64,000 nt of DNA from Marinifilum caeruleilacunae (GTDB lineage: Bacteria; Bacteroidota; Bacteroidia; Bacteroidales; Marinifilaceae), in NCBI RefSeq assembly GCF_013141825.1, contig NZ_RZNH01000014.1:45999-109998 (forward strand). The letters run 5' to 3'. Under the pieces are notes generated by a model. It was not told the DNA's origin. It did no database searches and saw only the letters and a list, made by a program, of their open reading frames with translations. Numbering within the stretch: the stretch's first letter is position 1; every line of letters begins with the position of its first letter. Shown here piece by piece: positions 54,857-63,436 of this stretch. Position numbers and translations under genes: made by a program.

Positions 54857-54894
54857 AAAAAAAAAGCGGCCTACTGAGTTTCAGTAGGCCGCTT
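54857..54894 (-). terminator. trp attenuator terminator
   Basis: On the minus strand AAGCGGCCTACTGA (from 54894) pairs with TCAGTAGGCCGCTT (to 54864), a 14-bp stem with a 3-nt loop, followed by T9 (54857-54865). It lies between the Trp-rich leader peptide and trpE, 28 bp before trpE. A matching antiterminator arm was not found by eye. Confidence 0.9.
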
Positions 54895-54920
54895 GCTTTA
54901 TCTTTTCTTTTCGTTTGATT

Positions 54921-55007
54921 TTAGCACATAGGGAGGACACTTCCGCTCATGGTATTTGAGAGATTACAGTTGTGCCACCACCAATATTTGCTATTCAATC
55001 CGAACAT
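54921..55007 (-). CDS. trpL: trp leader peptide
   Basis: A 28-codon frame starting MFGLNSKYWWWHNCN and ending VLPMC, with three consecutive UGG codons at residues 9-11. It begins 22 bp downstream of a consensus -7 box and ends 27 bp before the terminator stem. Ribosome stalling at the Trp codons when charged tRNA-Trp is scarce would be expected to prevent terminator formation, as in classical attenuation. A purine-rich stretch precedes the ATG. The Rfam Bacteroid-trp motif, from memory, describes leaders of this sort. Confidence 0.88.
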   Translation of the reverse strand: MFGLNSKYWWWHNCNLSNTMSGSVLPMC

Positions 55008-55061: not shown

Positions 55062-55386
55062 TGTGTTTCTTTGGTTTCATCCTGATTTTTAACCCTACAA
55101 AGTTCTGTACGGCCCATAAACATTGCACTTTAAAGCGAATGTATATTTTTTGTTAATTTTTAAAATTCAGATATCGTATCAGAAATAATTTCAAAACACC
55201 CCTATTTAAATGGGTCAAATTTTAATAAAGTACACTTTCTCTATTCTTACCCCCATTATCAAACAAGCAATAAAGAAAAATTTAATTTTCATTAAAAAGT
55301 CCTGAAAGACCTGTTTTTGCAGGTAAAAGAGGAAGTCAACTTTACTTTCTCAAACGTTAACATTTCATTAAGTAAAGCAATTTAAA
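55062..55386. other. Region between the divergent trp and aro promoters
   Basis: About 325 bp, AT-rich, without a credible ORF. A 13-bp direct repeat TTTGCAGGTAAAA occurs at 55316-55328 and 55387-55399. The second copy contains the TTTG -33 box of the aro promoter. A small hairpin ACCTG-TTTTTG-CAGGT (55309-55324) covers the first copy. This could be a regulator site, and nothing else stands out. Confidence 0.45.
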
Positions 55387-55417
55387 TTTGCAGGTAAAAA
55401 ATTAATTCATACATTTG
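55387..55417 (+). promoter_or_regulatory. Aromatic operon promoter
   Basis: TTTG (55387-55390), 19 bp, TACATTTG (55410-55417) fully matches the TTTG-N19-21-TAnnTTTG consensus. The expected start near 55424 leaves about 20 nt before the first leader ATG. Confidence 0.78.
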
Positions 55418-55443: not shown

Positions 55444-55512
55444 ATGAAAACAGTATCTACATACATTTCTAACTATTTTTATTTTTGGTTTTACTTTTAT
55501 CCAACAAGATAA
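55444..55512 (+). CDS. Aromatic leader peptide 1
   Basis: A 22-codon frame, MKTVSTYISN followed by YFYFWFYFY and PTR, with four Phe, five Tyr and one Trp codons. The stop codon is directly followed by the antiterminator arm GGGCAAGA. It is the sensor of the first of two tandem attenuators upstream of the aromatic operon. Ribosome stalling in the Phe/Tyr run would let the arm pair downstream and prevent termination. Codon order is not conserved with leader 2, so the composition rather than the sequence is shared. Confidence 0.88.
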   Translation: MKTVSTYISNYFYFWFYFYPTR

Positions 55513-55585
55513 GGGCAAGAATTGATATGTAGTAATACGAAGAATATAAATCAAAGGTCTTGCCCAACAGGTAAGACCTTTTTTT
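55513..55585 (+). terminator. Aromatic attenuator 1: antiterminator arm and terminator
   Basis: Terminator: AAAGGTCTT (55553-55561) pairs with AAGACCTTT (55573-55581), loop 11 nt, T7 tract to 55585. Antiterminator: GGGCAAGA (55513-55520) is a perfect 8-bp complement of TCTTGCCC (55558-55565), which overlaps the terminator 5' arm. Pairing extends with TTGAT (55522-55526) and ATCAA (55550-55554). A weak competing stem CTTTTAT/ATAAGGG lies at the leader end. Confidence 0.88.
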
Positions 55586-55601
55586 ATGCATAATTTGAAC
55601 T

Positions 55602-55685
55602 ATGAGTAACAGAGCATTTACATACCGATTTTATTTTTATTATTTCTGGTTTAACACAAATCGGGCGGGATGCCTTATACCATAA
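55602..55685 (+). CDS. Aromatic leader peptide 2
   Basis: A 27-codon frame starting MSNRAFTYR, then FYFYYFWF, then NTNRAGCLIP, with five Phe, four Tyr and one Trp codons. It begins 17 bp after the first terminator. The antiterminator arm overlaps the NRAG codons just after the aromatic run, so a ribosome stalled at the run would free it while one reaching the stop would cover it. Second sensor of the tandem attenuator. Confidence 0.86.
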   Translation: MSNRAFTYRFYFYYFWFNTNRAGCLIP

Positions 55686-55737
55686 CTCAAGTAAAAAGTA
55701 TAAAAGATCCTGCCCGAAAAGAGCAGGATTTTTTTTT
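55661..55737 (+). terminator. Aromatic attenuator 2: antiterminator arm and terminator
   Basis: Terminator: ATCCTGC (55707-55713) pairs with GCAGGAT (55723-55729) and is followed by T9 to 55737. Antiterminator: TCGGGCGGGAT (55661-55671) pairs over 11 bp (one G-U) with ATCCTGCCCGA (55707-55717), extended by TTATAC/GTATAA (55675-55680/55698-55703). The first aminotransferase codon follows 38 bp later. Confidence 0.88.
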
Positions 55738-55775: not shown

Positions 55776-56939
55776 ATGATTCAACCAGCAAACAGAACCC
55801 AAGTAATTAAAGAGTACTACTTCTCGGTAAAACTGAAGGAGATTGCACGCTTGAACGAGGGTGAAGTAAAAGTTTTAAACCTAGGAATCGGAGATCCGGA
55901 TATGACTCCATCGGAAGATACCTGGAACTCTTTAAAAGAAGCCTGTATACATCCAAAAAGTCATGGATACCAGAGCTACCAGGGAATTCCTGCCCTACGC
56001 CAGGGCTTTTCGAAATGGTATAAAACTTATTTTGATGTAGATATCAATCCTGATAATGAGGTTCTTCCACTTATGGGTTCTAAGGAAGGGATCATGATTA
56101 CCTCTTTGGCTTACCTGAATGAAGGTGACGAGGTTTTAATTCCAGACCCATCCTACCCAACCTATAAGTCGGTAACTAATTTACTGGGAGGTAAAATCAT
56201 TTCATATCCGCTTTGCGAAGAGCACAACTGGCAACCAGATCTTGATGAATTGGAAAAAAGAGATCTATCGAAGGTAAAAATCATGTGGATCAATTATCCA
56301 CACATGCCAACAGGAGCAAGAGCAAGCAAAGATTTACTGGAAAGAATTGTGGCATTTGGACGAAAACACAACATCCTAATTGTGAACGACAATCCTTACA
56401 GCTTTATTCTGAATGATCAGCCAATGAGCATTATGAATATTGAAGGAGCCAAAGATTGTTGCCTGGAATTGAACTCACTGAGTAAATCGCACAATATGCC
56501 AGGTTGGAGAGTGGGAATGATCTGCGGAAGCAAGGAACTTCTTGAGCCGGTTTTAAAGGTGAAAACCAATATGGATTCGGGCATGTTTTACCCGGTACAA
56601 CAGGCTGCTATTAAAGCCTTAAGCCATGATAAAAGCTGGTACGATTCTATTAATCAGGTGTACAAAAACAGAAGAGAGCTTGTGTTTTCTTTAATGAAAT
56701 TGATCAATTGTAAGCCTAGTGCCGACCAGAGTGGAATGTTTGTTTGGGCATCCATTCCTGATCAGTATAAAGATTGCTACGAGTTGAGCGATGAGATTTT
56801 AAAACAAGCAAAGGTATTTATTACTCCAGGTGGCATTTTTGGAGAACAAGGAAAAAGATACATCAGAATTTCTTTATGCAGTAGTGAATCTGTAATTAAT
56901 GAGGCAATTCAACGTATCGAAAAATCAAGAAAAAATTAA
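55776..56939 (+). CDS. Pyridoxal phosphate-dependent aminotransferase, aromatic pathway
   Basis: A 387-residue class I aminotransferase. It shows VLNLGIGDPDMTPSEDTWNSL, LPLMGSKEGIMITSLAYLN, MWINYPHMPTGA, NDNPYSFI and the Schiff-base Lys in ELNSLSKSHNMPGWRVGM. The first gene of the aromatic operon, behind two Phe/Tyr-type attenuators, it most probably transaminates phenylpyruvate and hydroxyphenylpyruvate (TyrB-type role). Similarity to LL-diaminopimelate aminotransferases means that activity is not excluded. No prephenate dehydratase was found, so this gene and tyrA cover the last tyrosine steps. Confidence 0.9.
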   Translation: MIQPANRTQVIKEYYFSVKLKEIARLNEGEVKVLNLGIGDPDMTPSEDTWNSLKEACIHPKSHGYQSYQGIPALRQGFSKWYKTYFDVDINPDNEVLPLMGSKEGIMITSLAYLNEGDEVLIPDPSYPTYKSVTNLLGGKIISYPLCEEHNWQPDLDELEKRDLSKVKIMWINYPHMPTGARASKDLLERIVAFGRKHNILIVNDNPYSFILNDQPMSIMNIEGAKDCCLELNSLSKSHNMPGWRVGMICGSKELLEPVLKVKTNMDSGMFYPVQQAAIKALSHDKSWYDSINQVYKNRRELVFSLMKLINCKPSADQSGMFVWASIPDQYKDCYELSDEILKQAKVFITPGGIFGEQGKRYIRISLCSSESVINEAIQRIEKSRKN

Positions 56940-56943
56940 GAAA

Positions 56944-57840
56944 ATGATAGTTTCAGTTATAGGATTAGGATTAATTGGTGGATCGATTGCTTTGGATCTG
57001 AAGCAACGTGGTTTTGCCGATAAGGTGATAGGCGTTGACAATAATCCAATGCATGCTCACCAGGCAAAGAAAATAGGCCTTGCAGATGAAATTCAGGATT
57101 TAAGAACTGCAGTTGAATCGTCGCATGTGGTGATTCTTGCCATTCCGGTAAGCGCCTGTTTGAGAGCTTTACCCGAAATCATGGACATGGTCGACCAGCA
57201 AGTTGTAACCGACTTAGGATCAACCAAAGAGCAGTTGATTGAATGCATTGCAAATCATCCAAAACGAAAGCAATATGTTCCTGCCCATCCTATGGCGGGT
57301 ACCGAGTTTTCTGGTCCTAAAGCGGCACATTCGGGCTTATTTGATGGCAAGTGTTCGATCATATGTAATCCTGAGGATTCCGATAAAGATGCCGTTAACA
57401 TGATTAGCGACATGTTCCATACACTGCAAATGCGATGTGTATACATGGATGCCGAAGTTCACGACAGACAAACTGCATATGTTTCTCACCTTTCTCACAT
57501 TAGTGCATTCGCTTTGTCACTTACCGTACTTCATAAAGAGAAAAAGGACAAGCACATTTTTGAACTGGCAAGTGGTGGTTTCGACTCAACAGTTCGATTG
57601 GCAAAAAGTTCGGCTGAAATGTGGACCCCTATTTTTCACCAGAACAAAAAGAACATCGGGAAAGTGCTTCAAAAGTATATCGATACCCTTCAGCAATTTA
57701 AAGATCGGATTGAGAATAACGATTTAGGAGGAGTTGACGATTTGATAAACGAAGCCAATGACATTAGCAGGGTCTTAGATGAAAAAGAACGAAACGAGGC
57801 TGAAACCATCAAGAATGCTAAAAAAATAAGAAGAGCATAA
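56944..57840 (+). CDS. tyrA: Prephenate dehydrogenase
   Basis: A 298-residue NAD(P)-dependent enzyme making hydroxyphenylpyruvate. The Rossmann motif VSVIGLGLIGGSIALDLKQRG starts right after Met1. The family blocks VTDLGSTKEQLIE, YVPAHPMAGTEFSGPKAAHSGLFDGK (substrate His and Gly-rich loop) and HDRQTAYVSHLSHISAFAL follow. No ACT or chorismate mutase domain is present. The start is ATG at 56944, 4 bp after the aminotransferase stop, rather than a longer in-frame extension overlapping it. Tyrosine branch of the operon. Confidence 0.94.
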   Translation: MIVSVIGLGLIGGSIALDLKQRGFADKVIGVDNNPMHAHQAKKIGLADEIQDLRTAVESSHVVILAIPVSACLRALPEIMDMVDQQVVTDLGSTKEQLIECIANHPKRKQYVPAHPMAGTEFSGPKAAHSGLFDGKCSIICNPEDSDKDAVNMISDMFHTLQMRCVYMDAEVHDRQTAYVSHLSHISAFALSLTVLHKEKKDKHIFELASGGFDSTVRLAKSSAEMWTPIFHQNKKNIGKVLQKYIDTLQQFKDRIENNDLGGVDDLINEANDISRVLDEKERNEAETIKNAKKIRRA

Positions 57841-57916: not shown

Positions 57917-59005
57917 ATGAGCAAAAAAATTGAAATAGCAGACCTTAGCAGTTGGCCAATAGAAAATGTTGACAGACCATTAATTATTGGCGGACCATGT
58001 AGTGCAGAAACTGAAGAACAGGTGTTGGAAACAGCCAAAGGAATTAAAGCGGCCGGAATTCCGATTTTCCGTGCAGGAATTTGGAAGCCCAGAACCCGTC
58101 CGAACAGTTTCGAAGGCATTGGTGCGCAAGGCTTAATCTGGTTGCAAAAAGTAAAAGCCGAAACAGGAATGCTAACGGCTACCGAGGTTGCCAACGGCAA
58201 ACATGTTGAATTGGCACTAGGCGCTGGTGTAGATATTCTTTGGATTGGTGCCAGAACCACTGTAAACCCTTTTGCCGTTCAGGAAATTGCTGACGCTTTG
58301 CGCGGAAAAGACATTCCTGTCTTGGTAAAAAATCCTATTAATCCTGATTTGGAACTGTGGATTGGTGCAATTGAGCGATTAAGCGCTGTTGGCATTACCA
58401 AACTTGCTGCCATTCACCGTGGATTCTCAACTTACCAAAAACTGAAATACAGAAACGATCCACAATGGCAAATTCCGATTGAACTGAAAAGAAGACTTCC
58501 AAATTTGCCAATATTCTGTGACCCTAGCCATATTACCGGCGACAGAAATTTATTGGATGAAGTTACCCAGAAAGCCATGGACCTGAACTACGAAGGTTTG
58601 ATTGTTGAATCGCATTGCAAGCCCGAAGAAGCATGGAGTGATGCAAAACAACAGCTAACTCCTAAGTCACTTGAAGAACTTTTAGCTAACTTAGTACTTC
58701 GTGATCCGGAAGCAGACAACGAAGTAATCAATAATACACTGGGTGAATTGAGACACCTGATTGATGATTTCGACCAGAAACTTCTTGAATTACTGGAAAA
58801 TAGAATGCAGGTTGCCAAAACAATCGGACATTACAAGAAAGAAAATAACATCACTGTATTACAGAATAAACGTTGGGGACAGATTCTTGAAAAAAGCCTT
58901 GAAAACGGGAAGAAAAAAGGATTCAGCGAACAATTCATCAATAACTTGTTCAAAGCAATTCACCAGGAATCTATCAACCAGCAGGAAGATATCATGAATT
59001 CGTAA
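57917..59005 (+). CDS. Fused DAHP synthase-chorismate mutase
   Basis: A 362-residue bifunctional enzyme. Residues about 1-265 form a type I-beta 3-deoxy-7-phosphoheptulonate synthase (GGPCSAETEEQVLETAKGIKAAGI, FRAGIWKPRTRPNSFEGIGAQG, FCDPSHITGDRNLLDEV), the entry of the shikimate pathway. Residues about 270-362 form an AroQ-type chorismate mutase (LGELRHLIDDFDQKLLELLENRMQVAKTIGHYKKEN, NITVLQNKRWGQILEKS). A fused mutase can serve as the feedback sensor for chorismate or prephenate. Such fusions are usual in Bacteroidota. It follows tyrA after 76 bp. Confidence 0.95.
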   Translation: MSKKIEIADLSSWPIENVDRPLIIGGPCSAETEEQVLETAKGIKAAGIPIFRAGIWKPRTRPNSFEGIGAQGLIWLQKVKAETGMLTATEVANGKHVELALGAGVDILWIGARTTVNPFAVQEIADALRGKDIPVLVKNPINPDLELWIGAIERLSAVGITKLAAIHRGFSTYQKLKYRNDPQWQIPIELKRRLPNLPIFCDPSHITGDRNLLDEVTQKAMDLNYEGLIVESHCKPEEAWSDAKQQLTPKSLEELLANLVLRDPEADNEVINNTLGELRHLIDDFDQKLLELLENRMQVAKTIGHYKKENNITVLQNKRWGQILEKSLENGKKKGFSEQFINNLFKAIHQESINQQEDIMNS

Positions 59006-59089: not shown

Positions 59090-60133
59090 ATGAAAAGCAT
59101 ACACATCGAAAATCAGAACAGCACAATTTTAATTGGTGAATCTTATCTTAACATTCAAAAATACCTGCCTGAAAAAAAGTGCTTTTTAATTTGCGATGAA
59201 AACATCTACGCCCATTACAAAAGTTTTGTCGATGACTTTGACCACATTATAATTGGCTGTGGTGAAGAGATCAAAACCTGGTCATCAGTTGCAAAAATCG
59301 TTGAAAAACTACTGGCTGGTGGTGCCGATAGAAACAGTTACCTCCTTGGAATGGGAGGCGGATTAGTTTGCGATGTAACAGGATTTGTAGCATCTGTTTT
59401 CATGAGAGGCCTAGACTTTGGTTTCATTTCTACTTCCCTGCTCTCGCAGGTTGATGCCAGCGTTGGTGGCAAAAATGGAATCAATTTCGGCAAACTTAAA
59501 AATATGATTGGGGTTTTTAACCCACCCCAATTTGTGATTTGCGATCCGCAACTTTTAAGAACATTGCCTGAGCGCGAAATCAGAAGTGGATTTGGAGAGG
59601 TAATTAAACATGCTTTCATTAAGGATAAAGATCTCTTCGAATTTTTGAAAGAGAATAAAGATGCACTTTTAAACCTGGATGCCGCACTTATGGAAGATCT
59701 GATTTACAGAGCAGTATCCATCAAAACAGAAGTAGTAAACAAAGATCCTTTTGAAAAAGGTGAACGCAAGAAATTGAATTTTGGACACACCATTGGACAT
59801 GCCATCGAGAACAATTCCGATTTAACACATGGCGAGGCGGTATCAGTTGGTATGGCACTAGCCACAAGACTTTCAGAGGAAATGAGTGGATTGAGTTCCG
59901 ATCAAAGTTATGAGGTGATTAGTCTTCTCAGAATGTATAAACTGCCTGTTGATCATGAAGTTCCGGCAGAAACAATCAATAATTTTCTGATTAAAGACAA
60001 GAAAAAGAATCGTTCATCTATCGACTTTATCCTATTAAACAGCATTGGAGAAGCTAGTATTAAAGCTATTCCAATTGAAGATTTAAAAAGCAAAGTGATT
60101 CGCCTTTGCAAAGACCCAAAACCAATACAATAA
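59090..60133 (+). CDS. aroB: 3-dehydroquinate synthase
   Basis: A 347-residue NAD-dependent lyase making 3-dehydroquinate from DAHP. MGGGLVCDVTGFVASVFMRGLDFGFISTSLLSQVDASVGGKNGINF is the cofactor and catalytic region, SGFGEVIKHAFIKD the zinc Glu part, and LNFGHTIGHAIEN with HGEAVSVGMALA the zinc His region. Normal length for the family. Directly precedes aroA (9-bp gap). Confidence 0.96.
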   Translation: MKSIHIENQNSTILIGESYLNIQKYLPEKKCFLICDENIYAHYKSFVDDFDHIIIGCGEEIKTWSSVAKIVEKLLAGGADRNSYLLGMGGGLVCDVTGFVASVFMRGLDFGFISTSLLSQVDASVGGKNGINFGKLKNMIGVFNPPQFVICDPQLLRTLPEREIRSGFGEVIKHAFIKDKDLFEFLKENKDALLNLDAALMEDLIYRAVSIKTEVVNKDPFEKGERKKLNFGHTIGHAIENNSDLTHGEAVSVGMALATRLSEEMSGLSSDQSYEVISLLRMYKLPVDHEVPAETINNFLIKDKKKNRSSIDFILLNSIGEASIKAIPIEDLKSKVIRLCKDPKPIQ

Positions 60134-60142
60134 GACAAAAGC

Positions 60143-61420
60143 ATGAGAGTCAGGATACAAAATTCAAATATAAAAGGGAAATTAACTCCTCCCAGCTCTA
60201 AAAGCATGATGCAAAGAGCATTGGCAGCTGCTGCCTTGGCAAAAGGTGAAACAAGTATCTTAAATCCATGTAGATGCGACGATGCCTCGGCAGCTACAGA
60301 TATCATACAAAAAATGGGTGCCGATGTCATGGATTTGGGACACAAAATAATTGTGAAAGGCAATCATTTGAAAGCTGCACAATCGGTAATGGTAGGAGAA
60401 TCAGGATTATCCTTAAGAATGTTCTCTCCTATTTTGGCCTTGAATCCTGAACCGGTAAGCATTAATGGTCGTGGAAGTATTCTTAAACGCCCTGTGCACA
60501 ATATTCTTGAAGGATTGGAAGCCCTGGGAATTAAATGCAAAAATCCTGGCAAAGGTGTTTTGCCCATACAATTGCAGGGTGCTTATAAAAATAACACTGC
60601 CGTAATTAATGGAGCACTTGGCTCGCAATTTCTTACCGGACTTTTAATGGCCCTGCCATGTCGAAAGCAAGATACAATTCTGGAAGTAACAAATCTTAAG
60701 AGCATTCCTTATATCAATATGACCATTGATTTACTGAAAGATTTTGGGATTGAAATCAGTCATGAAAACTACAAACGCTTTATAATTAAAGGAAATCAGC
60801 AATACAAAGCAACAGAATACGCCGTTGAATCCGATTGGAGTTCGGCAGCACCACTTTTGGTAGCCGGAGCATTAAAAGGAAAGCTTACGCTTGAAAATTT
60901 AAATCCGTATTCGTACCAGGCCGACATTGCTATTCTTGATGCCTTGAAAAAGTGTGGTGCAAGCCTGCACTGGAAAGAGAACAGTCTAACAGTAGAGAAA
61001 AAAGCACTGAATGCCTTTGAATTTGATGCTACACATTGTCCCGATCTTTTCCCGCCATTGGTTGCTTTGGCCGTTCATTGCAATGGCGATACCCGAATTA
61101 AAGGAGTACACCGATTGGAACACAAAGAAAGCAACAGGGGAATTGTTCTTCAGAAAGAATTTGGGAAACTTGCTGTTCCTATCCGCATAGAAGGTGATGA
61201 AATGGTGATTCCTGGAGGAAGGTTAAAAGGTGGTATTTCTAACAGCAATAACGATCATAGAATTGCCATGGCTTTGGCTGTTGCCGGATTGAATTCCAAA
61301 TATGCAGTAGAAATTGGCGATCATGATTGTGTAGCAAAATCATATCCCGATTTTTTCAAGGATTTGAGAAAAATTGGCGGTGGCATTGCAGAATTCTATT
61401 TCAAAAGTCAATTTGTTTAA
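60143..61420 (+). CDS. aroA: 3-phosphoshikimate 1-carboxyvinyltransferase
   Basis: A 425-residue EPSP synthase, the sixth shikimate step. GKLTPPSSKSMMQRALAAAALAKG is the phosphoshikimate-binding start. ESGLSLRMFSPILAL with the modified GxSGTxxR-like region, VEKKALNAFEFDATHCPDLFPPLVALAV (catalytic Asp) and NSNNDHRIAMALAVAG follow. The ESGLSLRMFSP segment replaces the usual NSGTTMRL, as is common in Bacteroidota. No fused partner domain. Confidence 0.94.
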   Translation: MRVRIQNSNIKGKLTPPSSKSMMQRALAAAALAKGETSILNPCRCDDASAATDIIQKMGADVMDLGHKIIVKGNHLKAAQSVMVGESGLSLRMFSPILALNPEPVSINGRGSILKRPVHNILEGLEALGIKCKNPGKGVLPIQLQGAYKNNTAVINGALGSQFLTGLLMALPCRKQDTILEVTNLKSIPYINMTIDLLKDFGIEISHENYKRFIIKGNQQYKATEYAVESDWSSAAPLLVAGALKGKLTLENLNPYSYQADIAILDALKKCGASLHWKENSLTVEKKALNAFEFDATHCPDLFPPLVALAVHCNGDTRIKGVHRLEHKESNRGIVLQKEFGKLAVPIRIEGDEMVIPGGRLKGGISNSNNDHRIAMALAVAGLNSKYAVEIGDHDCVAKSYPDFFKDLRKIGGGIAEFYFKSQFV

Positions 61421-62455: not shown

Positions 62456-63436
62456 ATGAACAATTTCGGAAGAATATTCAGATTAAGCATATTTGGTGAA
62501 TCGCATGGAAAAGGAGTTGGAATAACCATTGACGGTTGTCCCGCAGGAATTCCGCTAACCGAAGAAGATTTAATGCAGGATTTAGGTCGCAGAAAATCTG
62601 GCGCCCGAGGAACCACTCCCCGAATAGAGAAAGATTTACCAGCCATTTTAAGTGGAACATTCGAGGGAAAAACAACCGGAGCTCCTTTAATTATCCTGTT
62701 CAGAAACAAAAACACCCAATCGAAAGACTACAGCAATTTATTGGATAGTCCTCGTCCCGGTCATGCCGATTTTGTGGCACAACATAAATTTGGCAAGAAC
62801 AATGACTATACTGGTGGCGGTCACTTTTCGGGTAGAATTACCCTGGGAATTGTAGCAGCCGGTGTGGTGGCGAAAAAAATATTGGGAGATGTTAACATCG
62901 ATGCGAAACTTACCGAAATAGGTGGCAGAACCGATTTTGATGCTGCCATTGAAGAGGCGCTGCTTGAACATGATTCTATTGGTGGAATTGTGGAATGTAA
63001 AGCAAACAATCTTCCTATCGGATATGGAGAACCATTTTTCGATTCGGTTGAATCTATGATCTCCCATTTGATTTTTGCCATTCCTGCAACCAAGGGAATT
63101 GAATTTGGTTCGGGTTTCGAAGCGGCAAAAATGAAAGGATCGGAGCACAACGATAATTTTATCGATGAAAATGGAAAAACAGAAACCAACCACGCAGGTG
63201 GCATTAACGGTGGAATTACCAATGGAAACGAATTGGTTTTTCGTGTAGCCATAAAGCCAACTTCATCAATTGGGAAAGTTCAAAACACCATGAATTTTGC
63301 CAAAGGAAAGGTTGAAGAATTACTGATAGAAGGTCGCCACGATGCCTGTATTGCACTTCGTATTCCGGTTATTATTGAAGCCGCTGCTGCCATTGCATTG
63401 GCAGATTTAAAACTGATAGATCAAGCAAGAAGATAA
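62456..63436 (+). CDS. aroC: Chorismate synthase
   Basis: A 326-residue FMN-dependent chorismate synthase, the last shikimate step. GRIFRLSIFGESHGKGVGITIDGCPAGIPL and SGARGTTPRIEKDLPAILSGTFEGKTTGAPL cover the active-site start. RPGHADFVAQHKFGKNNDYTGGGHFSGRITLGIVAAGVVAKKIL and NHAGGINGGITNGNELVFRVAIKPTSSI follow. It is about 30 residues shorter than the E. coli enzyme, mainly because the middle region after VVAKKIL is compact. All signature segments are present. Ends the operon, followed by a terminator. Confidence 0.95.
   Translation: MNNFGRIFRLSIFGESHGKGVGITIDGCPAGIPLTEEDLMQDLGRRKSGARGTTPRIEKDLPAILSGTFEGKTTGAPLIILFRNKNTQSKDYSNLLDSPRPGHADFVAQHKFGKNNDYTGGGHFSGRITLGIVAAGVVAKKILGDVNIDAKLTEIGGRTDFDAAIEEALLEHDSIGGIVECKANNLPIGYGEPFFDSVESMISHLIFAIPATKGIEFGSGFEAAKMKGSEHNDNFIDENGKTETNHAGGINGGITNGNELVFRVAIKPTSSIGKVQNTMNFAKGKVEELLIEGRHDACIALRIPVIIEAAAAIALADLKLIDQARR

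Follow-up and report, generated by a model that had tools for sequence, protein, structure and literature searches.

Two predicted leader-peptide attenuators in series before an aromatic operon in Marinifilum and its relatives

The leader region and the operon behind it

In the window (the whole 64-kb stretch of DNA that was analysed), two attenuator units follow one another, head to tail, in the gap that separates an aromatic operon from a divergent trp operon. An earlier note on this DNA had described two aromatic-rich leader open reading frames (ORFs), two antiterminator arms and two terminators in series at this place, and all of them are present. The arms pair with the terminators as it had claimed, over 8 bp without mismatch in unit 1 and over 11 bp with one G-U in unit 2. 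The location before an aromatic operon was borne out by Pfam and NCBIfam models, which gave the order aminotransferase-tyrA-aroF/chorismate mutase-aroB-aroA-aroC. The features are:

55387..55417, + strand, likely promoter as read from the sequence: TTTG (55387-55390), 19 nt, then TACATTTG (55410-55417)
55444..55512, + strand, leader peptide 1: 22 codons, MKTVSTYISNYFYFWFYFYPTR, aromatic run YFYFWFYFY
55513..55520, + strand, antiterminator arm 1: GGGCAAGA, perfect 8-bp complement of TCTTGCCC (55558-55565)
55554..55585, + strand, intrinsic terminator 1: 11-bp stem 55554-55564 / 55570-55580, T tract ending at 55585
55602..55685, + strand, leader peptide 2: 27 codons, MSNRAFTYRFYFYYFWFNTNRAGCLIP, aromatic run FYFYYFWF
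55661..55671, + strand, antiterminator arm 2: TCGGGCGGGAT, pairs with ATCCTGCCCGA (55707-55717) over 11 bp, one of them G-U
55675..55703, + strand, inner antiterminator helix of unit 2 in the predicted fold: TTATAC (55675-55680) with GTATAA (55698-55703)
55707..55737, + strand, intrinsic terminator 2: stem 55707-55713 / 55723-55729, T tract to 55737
55776..56939, + strand, PLP aminotransferase, first operon gene: Pfam Aminotran_1_2, 5.2e-62
56899..57840, + strand, prephenate dehydrogenase (tyrA): NCBIfam NF006307 above cut-off
57917..59005, + strand, DAHP synthase fused to chorismate mutase (aroF-type): Pfam DAHP_synth_1 and CM_2
59090..60133, + strand, 3-dehydroquinate synthase (aroB): TIGR01357 above cut-off
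60143..61420, + strand, EPSP synthase (aroA): TIGR01356 above cut-off
62456..63436, + strand, chorismate synthase (aroC): TIGR00033 above cut-off

The stop codon of leader 1 directly adjoins arm 1, and ORF 2 extends through its own arm, which lies inside it. Against 200 dinucleotide shuffles, the arm-terminator duplexes have p=0.010 (unit 1) and p=0.005 (unit 2). Among ORFs of 8-50 residues with an ATG or GTG start in the 64-kb window, leaders 1 and 2 are the only ones to reach at least seven F/Y/W residues in nine. The stretch upstream of leader 1 is likely a Bacteroidota-like promoter, judging from its letters; the promoter consensus of this phylum is TTTG-N19-TAnnTTTG. TACATTTG is unchanged in 18 of 19 aligned rows, that is, in all that reach the site (the row of locus L014 begins inside it).

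The genes from the aminotransferase to aroC presumably form one transcript. Between aroA and aroC stand a 2-thiouracil-desulfurase-like gene (PF04463) and then a GNAT acetyltransferase gene. For the aminotransferase, none of the 25 best NCBIfam matches was above its cut-off. The operon has no pheA, and the genome's single match to the prephenate dehydratase family lies on another contig.

Several minor features were observed nearby and elsewhere in the genome. The divergent trp operon (minus strand, 54864-55007) is preceded by one Trp leader, MFGLNSKYWWWHNCNLSNTMSGSVLPMC (55007-54921), with a strong terminator behind it (54894-54864, minus strand); the best-pairing arm of this leader overlaps its Trp codons, unlike the arms of the aromatic units. 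Two copies of the string TTTGCAGGTAAAA, possibly a shared regulatory site, stand in the interval from the divergent trp genes to the aromatic genes (55316-55328 and 55387-55399), the second copy beginning at the likely promoter. A second DAHP synthase-chorismate mutase gene of the same genome (G000:C49:37519-38583) is 54% identical to the first, and the detector found no aromatic leader plus terminator in the stretch fetched around it.

Conservation and distribution

Conservation in relatives had been set beforehand as the test that could refute the tandem reading. The aminotransferase has a match at E<=1e-80 in 36 of 57 family genomes (its own included), of which the 19 that are at least 82% identical were taken as the closest genomes. 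Eighteen of the 19 also carry, some 2.1-2.4 kb further down that contig, an aroF with at least 87% identity to the one in the window; the exception is G031, whose 3.1-kb contig ends before that point. Both leaders and both terminators were found in all 19, the first terminator of L023 being read by eye. The layout also recurs in Ancylomarina (genus g2), which like Marinifilum belongs to the Marinifilaceae: tandem units precede pheA-aminotransferase-tyrA-aroF in 5/5 genomes, with leaders (e.g., MTVLNSYFWFYFYFIN and MNTSISYNYFFYFWFFYFRSDPRPYDII), arms and terminators whose sequences are unlike those of Marinifilum. With both units kept in relatives, two complete leader-peptide attenuators in tandem, as the earlier note had proposed, remain the best reading of the locus.

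The predicted helices are also largely kept. Terminator 1 is paired in 100% of cells in relatives, with two pairs changed on both sides, and terminator 2 (stem to 55729) in 99.2%. The corresponding values are 95.1% for the arm 1 helix (18 distinct relatives), 87.4% for the arm 2 helix and 94.4% for the inner helix of unit 2. In the antiterminator helices of the 19 close relatives, no pair changed on both sides and the covariation score was not above that of shuffles. Since covariation in these 19 is uninformative for the antiterminators, arms were instead compared across genera for their pairing with their own and with other terminators (see below).

Outside the closest genomes, there are 17 more distant aminotransferase matches, and none of the 11 fetched (L027-L037) has a unit directly upstream. 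In the family's aroF regions, pheA precedes the aminotransferase wherever both were found. The 36 further family aroF loci comprise 15 with tandem units, six with a single unit and 15 with none. Where pheA, an aminotransferase or tyrA lies beside aroF (33 family loci: the 19 closest and 14 others), 30 loci are tandem and three single.

Two wider samples were surveyed in the same way. An aroF match was found in 107 of 119 genomes of the order sample, 105 of them outside the Marinifilaceae, with one per family. Eighty of these 105 loci were fetched and gave nine tandem, 34 single and 37 without a unit, the last count being an upper bound because contig ends leave little upstream DNA at some loci (e.g., L201, L278 and L294). 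In the 49 with linked pheA, aminotransferase or tyrA, nine were tandem, 34 single and six without a unit; these six include L201 and L278, which have little upstream DNA, and L222, whose TTG-started leader was left out. The survey counts require six aromatic residues in nine and exclude TTG starts, so that L230 is scored as single and L222 as none; at a looser threshold of five, L230 has two units and would be the tenth tandem locus of the order. In the phylum sample, 28 of 109 genomes (own included) have an aroF match, and the counts rest on these. The 27 other genomes (26 of the same class and one of another) provided 30 loci, second copies included, with two tandem, 20 single and eight without a unit; the 21 linked loci among them were two tandem, 19 single and none without. 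By the order and phylum counts, then, linked operons most often have a single Phe/Tyr leader; the tandem form recurs as a variant and is frequent in Marinifilaceae. The survey points to widespread Phe/Tyr attenuation across the Bacteroidota samples covered. One unit was entered by hand in each of eight loci where the detector missed it (L023, L199, L218, L220, L228, L272, L277 and L289), and for the 19 closest loci the gene content was entered manually as aminotransferase-tyrA-aroF.

A GTDB-wide pattern scan returned at least 118 stretches, ten of which show, around the match, two ORFs with an ATG start and no more than 50 residues each. Among the matches listed, eight of those ten belong to Marinifilum (4), Ancylomarina (3) and Labilibaculum (1). 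L130 (Elusimicrobia) and L154 (Allomuricauda), also among the matches listed, do not look like aromatic leaders. Matches in Pelagibacteraceae/Pelagibacterales were set aside, four loci having been inspected and found to lack a terminator and six being annotated without an aromatic gene.

Beyond what had been claimed earlier, the tandem layout is also found before pheA and ilvD of the same genome. The separate pheA (G000:C43, L194/L038) is preceded by tandem Phe-only leaders, MMNRNYTNQFFFFFSRSC and MRTIFFFSFFFSFFFFGDEKDRILMV, each with a terminator. G026 (L340) and all four of the other Marinifilum pheA loci that were fetched (L330, L333-L335) retain both units; only one is found in G041 (L326) and in four loci of the genus Labilibaculum (L336, L337, L342 and L344), and L341 has one leader with no terminator detected. 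The ilvD locus (G000:C29, L274) has tandem Ile/Val leaders, MPLSNVIIINVIIRVLLGHGTRLRMF and MLSFNVVIIVIIISIVIIKMRIREDVHTQ. Among the 30 family ilvD loci examined (34 genomes have ilvD), 20 are tandem, three have one unit and seven have none. The his and trp loci of the genome have single leaders, that of hisG (G000:C43, L273) being a His leader, MKFIALHHRHHHFTYQQVS, with a terminator. No tandem was found in the two homoserine-dehydrogenase-like loci examined. We lean towards the view that ribosome-mediated attenuators placed in series and reading one signal are a general device in Marinifilaceae, used at three or more biosynthetic loci (aromatic, pheA and ilvD). Transcription of each locus would then face two checkpoints with one input on a single nascent RNA, and expression would depend on two successive stalling decisions; the off state would be tighter and the response to tRNA charging steeper and cooperative-like, with no protein regulator involved.

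In tandem loci from several families, the aromatic run follows an Arg codon in 11/19 unit-2 leaders but in 2/19 unit-1 leaders; among single leaders this is so in 8/55. This bias suggests that unit 2 is a separate lineage and does not stem from repeated fresh copying of unit 1.

Geometry, folding and the proposed mechanism

Run on 1,186,165 bases of opposite strand as a control, the leader-plus-terminator detector reported one unit, compared with 105 for the sense strands of these fetched loci. In a set of 114 units, which includes close relatives, the arm-terminator duplex is stronger than in dinucleotide shuffles at p<=0.05 in 83 and at p<=0.01 in 41; the remaining 31 miss p<=0.05. Weak unit-1 arms occur in L015, L017 and L026 (p 0.19-0.23) and in L162-L164 and L166 (p 0.44-0.61). 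The arm starts a median of 11 nt past the last aromatic codon, at 9-14 nt past the run in 89/114 units and at 5-20 nt in 110/114, and its distance to the end of the ORF is variable (-41 to +5). This distance is about what a ribosome would cover beyond the last control codon when that codon occupies its A site.

Pairing of each arm with its own terminator and with all others was compared for 92 of 144 units, near-identical copies from the same genus having been dropped by a hand list. The own terminator is in the arm's best 10% of all terminators in 58 of these 92 representative units and in the best 5% in 46, with about nine and five expected by chance. The mean rank of the own terminator is 0.12 (0.5 expected), and the mean pairing energy is -13.7 kcal/mol, compared with -8.8 kcal/mol for the others. 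In swaps within a locus, the window's arm 2 shows good pairing with terminator 1 as well (-17.1 kcal/mol), and for each of L015, L019, L208, L244 and L296 the locus's own arm 2 pairs better with terminator 1 than with terminator 2; arm 2 is, however, made after terminator 1 has acted.

Switching by ribosome position was modelled by folding only. With the transcript cut just past the 5' half of the terminator and a ribosome masking part of it, the antiterminator is predicted as long as the A site is no further along than codon 20 (unit 1) or codon 17 (unit 2); just beyond these codons it is blocked, which puts the switch within about a codon of the end of the run. The predicted switch point shifted by at most one codon over five choices of footprint. 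When the full transcript was folded at equilibrium, the antiterminator was predicted only for early stalls, at codons 7-11 (unit 1) and 6-11 (unit 2) among the positions tried. In the model without a ribosome, the cut transcript folds as the antiterminator and the full transcript as the terminator. With a ribosome at the stop codon of ORF 2, arm 2 of the cut transcript would be free to pair again under three of the five footprint choices.

We favour, with a probability of roughly 0.85, the reading that transcription is attenuated twice in series along a single nascent RNA, each time by a ribosome-mediated leader-peptide switch. This reading is founded on the ORFs, arms, terminators, conservation and geometry found by sequence and comparison, and the way in which leader residues follow gene content (see below) also speaks for it. 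In each unit, a ribosome would translate a short ORF with Phe, Tyr and one Trp control codon. Should any of these charged tRNAs be scarce, the ribosome would stall within the run with its leading edge just before the free arm, which could then capture the 5' half of the terminator and let RNA polymerase read on. With charged tRNAs plentiful, the ribosome would pass the last aromatic codon and cover the arm, and the terminator would form. This scheme presumes that the leaders are translated, that tRNA charging is sensed and that the units act serially. Counting against it are the antiterminator helices without two-sided changes in the close relatives, the weak unit-1 arms, the full-transcript folds in which early stalls alone yield the antiterminator, the differing folds of cut and full transcript when no ribosome is present, and the position of arm 2 inside its own ORF, where it may pair again once the ribosome is at the stop. 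A polymerase reaching the operon would have passed two decisions, and the response to starvation would be steeper. Since both decisions would have to be passed, basal transcription would be about the product of two read-through probabilities; a steeper, multiplicative or sharpened response is accordingly what two units in series would be expected to give.

It is unlikely that only one unit works while the other is a decaying duplicate or a constitutive terminator that merely lowers expression. Some unit-1 arms do pair weakly, and single-unit loci are the commonest outside Marinifilaceae where the operon is linked. However, both ORFs and terminators are kept throughout the closest genomes, other genera have both units with different sequences, and close relatives keep tandem units at two further loci. 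It is very unlikely that each unit reads a different signal, for instance Phe in one and Tyr in the other, as a logic gate of the mgtCBR kind (see below): the F/Y/W make-up of the two leaders differs somewhat, and the arm adjoins the stop codon in unit 1 and lies inside the ORF in unit 2, yet Phe, Tyr and Trp all occur in both leaders in 19/19 closest genomes, and at the tandem pheA and ilvD loci the two units carry the same residue class.

A promoter of its own for unit 2, which would make two transcripts and no series, was rejected as highly improbable. A TAnTTTG-like string at 55591-55597 lends it a little support, but this string is not conserved in the alignment, and the spacer from terminator 1 to start codon 2 is only 18-21 nt long in the 18 of the 19 closest loci that were measured. 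Of the 22 other tandem loci measured, 19 have a spacer of 10-35 nt; the remaining three have a negative value because an earlier start codon had been picked by the detector. So short a spacer leaves little room for a promoter and leader. Scarcely credible, with nothing found in its favour, is a riboswitch, T-box or protein-bound leader in which the F/Y codons occur by chance, as no Rfam family matches at its gathering score and the sequence diverges while residue class and geometry stay. The serial attenuators favoured above have the parts of a leader-peptide attenuator, namely an ORF with control codons, an intrinsic terminator before the first gene and an arm competing for the 5' half of that terminator.

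Known systems and the signal

Leader-peptide attenuation is a textbook mechanism that is known mainly as a single switch. The enterobacterial pheA/pheST and trp attenuators combine an ORF of control codons with an antiterminator that competes with an intrinsic terminator, before genes for the same amino acid. The Marinifilum units have the same layout; the enterobacterial attenuators are single, whereas those of Marinifilum are two in series with F, Y and W together. Tandem T-boxes also place serial control elements on one leader RNA, as do tandem riboswitches. Riboswitches and T-boxes bind their ligand or tRNA directly and have no leader peptide, unlike the Marinifilum units.

The closest parallel in layout is with the Salmonella mgtCBR leader (mgtM, mgtP), in which a pair of attenuators is likewise combined with a pair of short ORFs (Lee and Groisman, 2012; PMC3641672). 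There, a single attenuator per specific signal is given as normal and the two-signal tandem is called singular. The mgtCBR attenuators read ATP and proline and act additively, whereas the Marinifilum units would by codon content read the same amino acids. Leader-peptide control of aromatic genes has likewise been predicted for F/Y upstream ORF candidates near shikimate genes in five genomes (PMC6429828) and for the Acholeplasma aroF motif uORFC-13-1 (PMC8632094); these organisms are not Bacteroidota, and the sections consulted contain no two complete units in series. In the literature searched, which included few subscription papers, neither a serial same-signal leader-peptide attenuator nor an account of Phe/Tyr attenuation in Bacteroidota was found. 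The serial same-signal arrangement is a new form of the known leader-peptide attenuation; it is real and conserved, and its function we infer. Conserved series at several loci would show that bacteria cascade attenuation for gain or tightness, and the arrangement allows a clean quantitative question, namely whether read-through is multiplicative.

An existing Rfam family had been named as a check on novelty, and the leader in the window has no match at the gathering score, the value on which the T-box assignment also failed; 14 further loci matched tRNAs only. The Phe_leader family (RF01859) scores 45.7 and 37.9 bits for the two units, below its gathering cut-off of 55. It has 33 matches at E<=1 in this genome, unit 2 being the best among the matches listed, and reaches its cut-off in 0/57 family genomes. 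With so many matches elsewhere and the cut-off never passed, the resemblance is weak evidence, and RF01859 was rejected as the family of these units.

As to the signal, the earlier note had named Phe and Tyr. Both stand in the leaders, but a Trp codon is also present in both leaders in 19/19 closest genomes. Trp lies in or beside the run in all 38 units of the 19 closest loci, and elsewhere in 18/36 units of the other family loci, 15/52 units of the order set and 10/24 units of the phylum set. Given this Trp codon in both leaders and an operon that leads to chorismate, all three of Phe, Tyr and Trp may be sensed.

The ratio of Phe to Tyr in the leaders tracks the presence of pheA in the operon. 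The mean F/(F+Y) is 0.95 in 11 leaders of pheA alone (picked by hand from eight loci) and 0.53-0.58 where the operon includes pheA. Where the fetched region lacks pheA, the means are 0.45, 0.19 and 0.35, a single phylum-set unit standing at 0.62. No pheA (PF00800) match was found in any of the six genomes of genus g3, four of which carry tandem leaders that are mainly Tyr. From these ratios and the g3 case, leader residues therefore tend to follow the products of the pathway.
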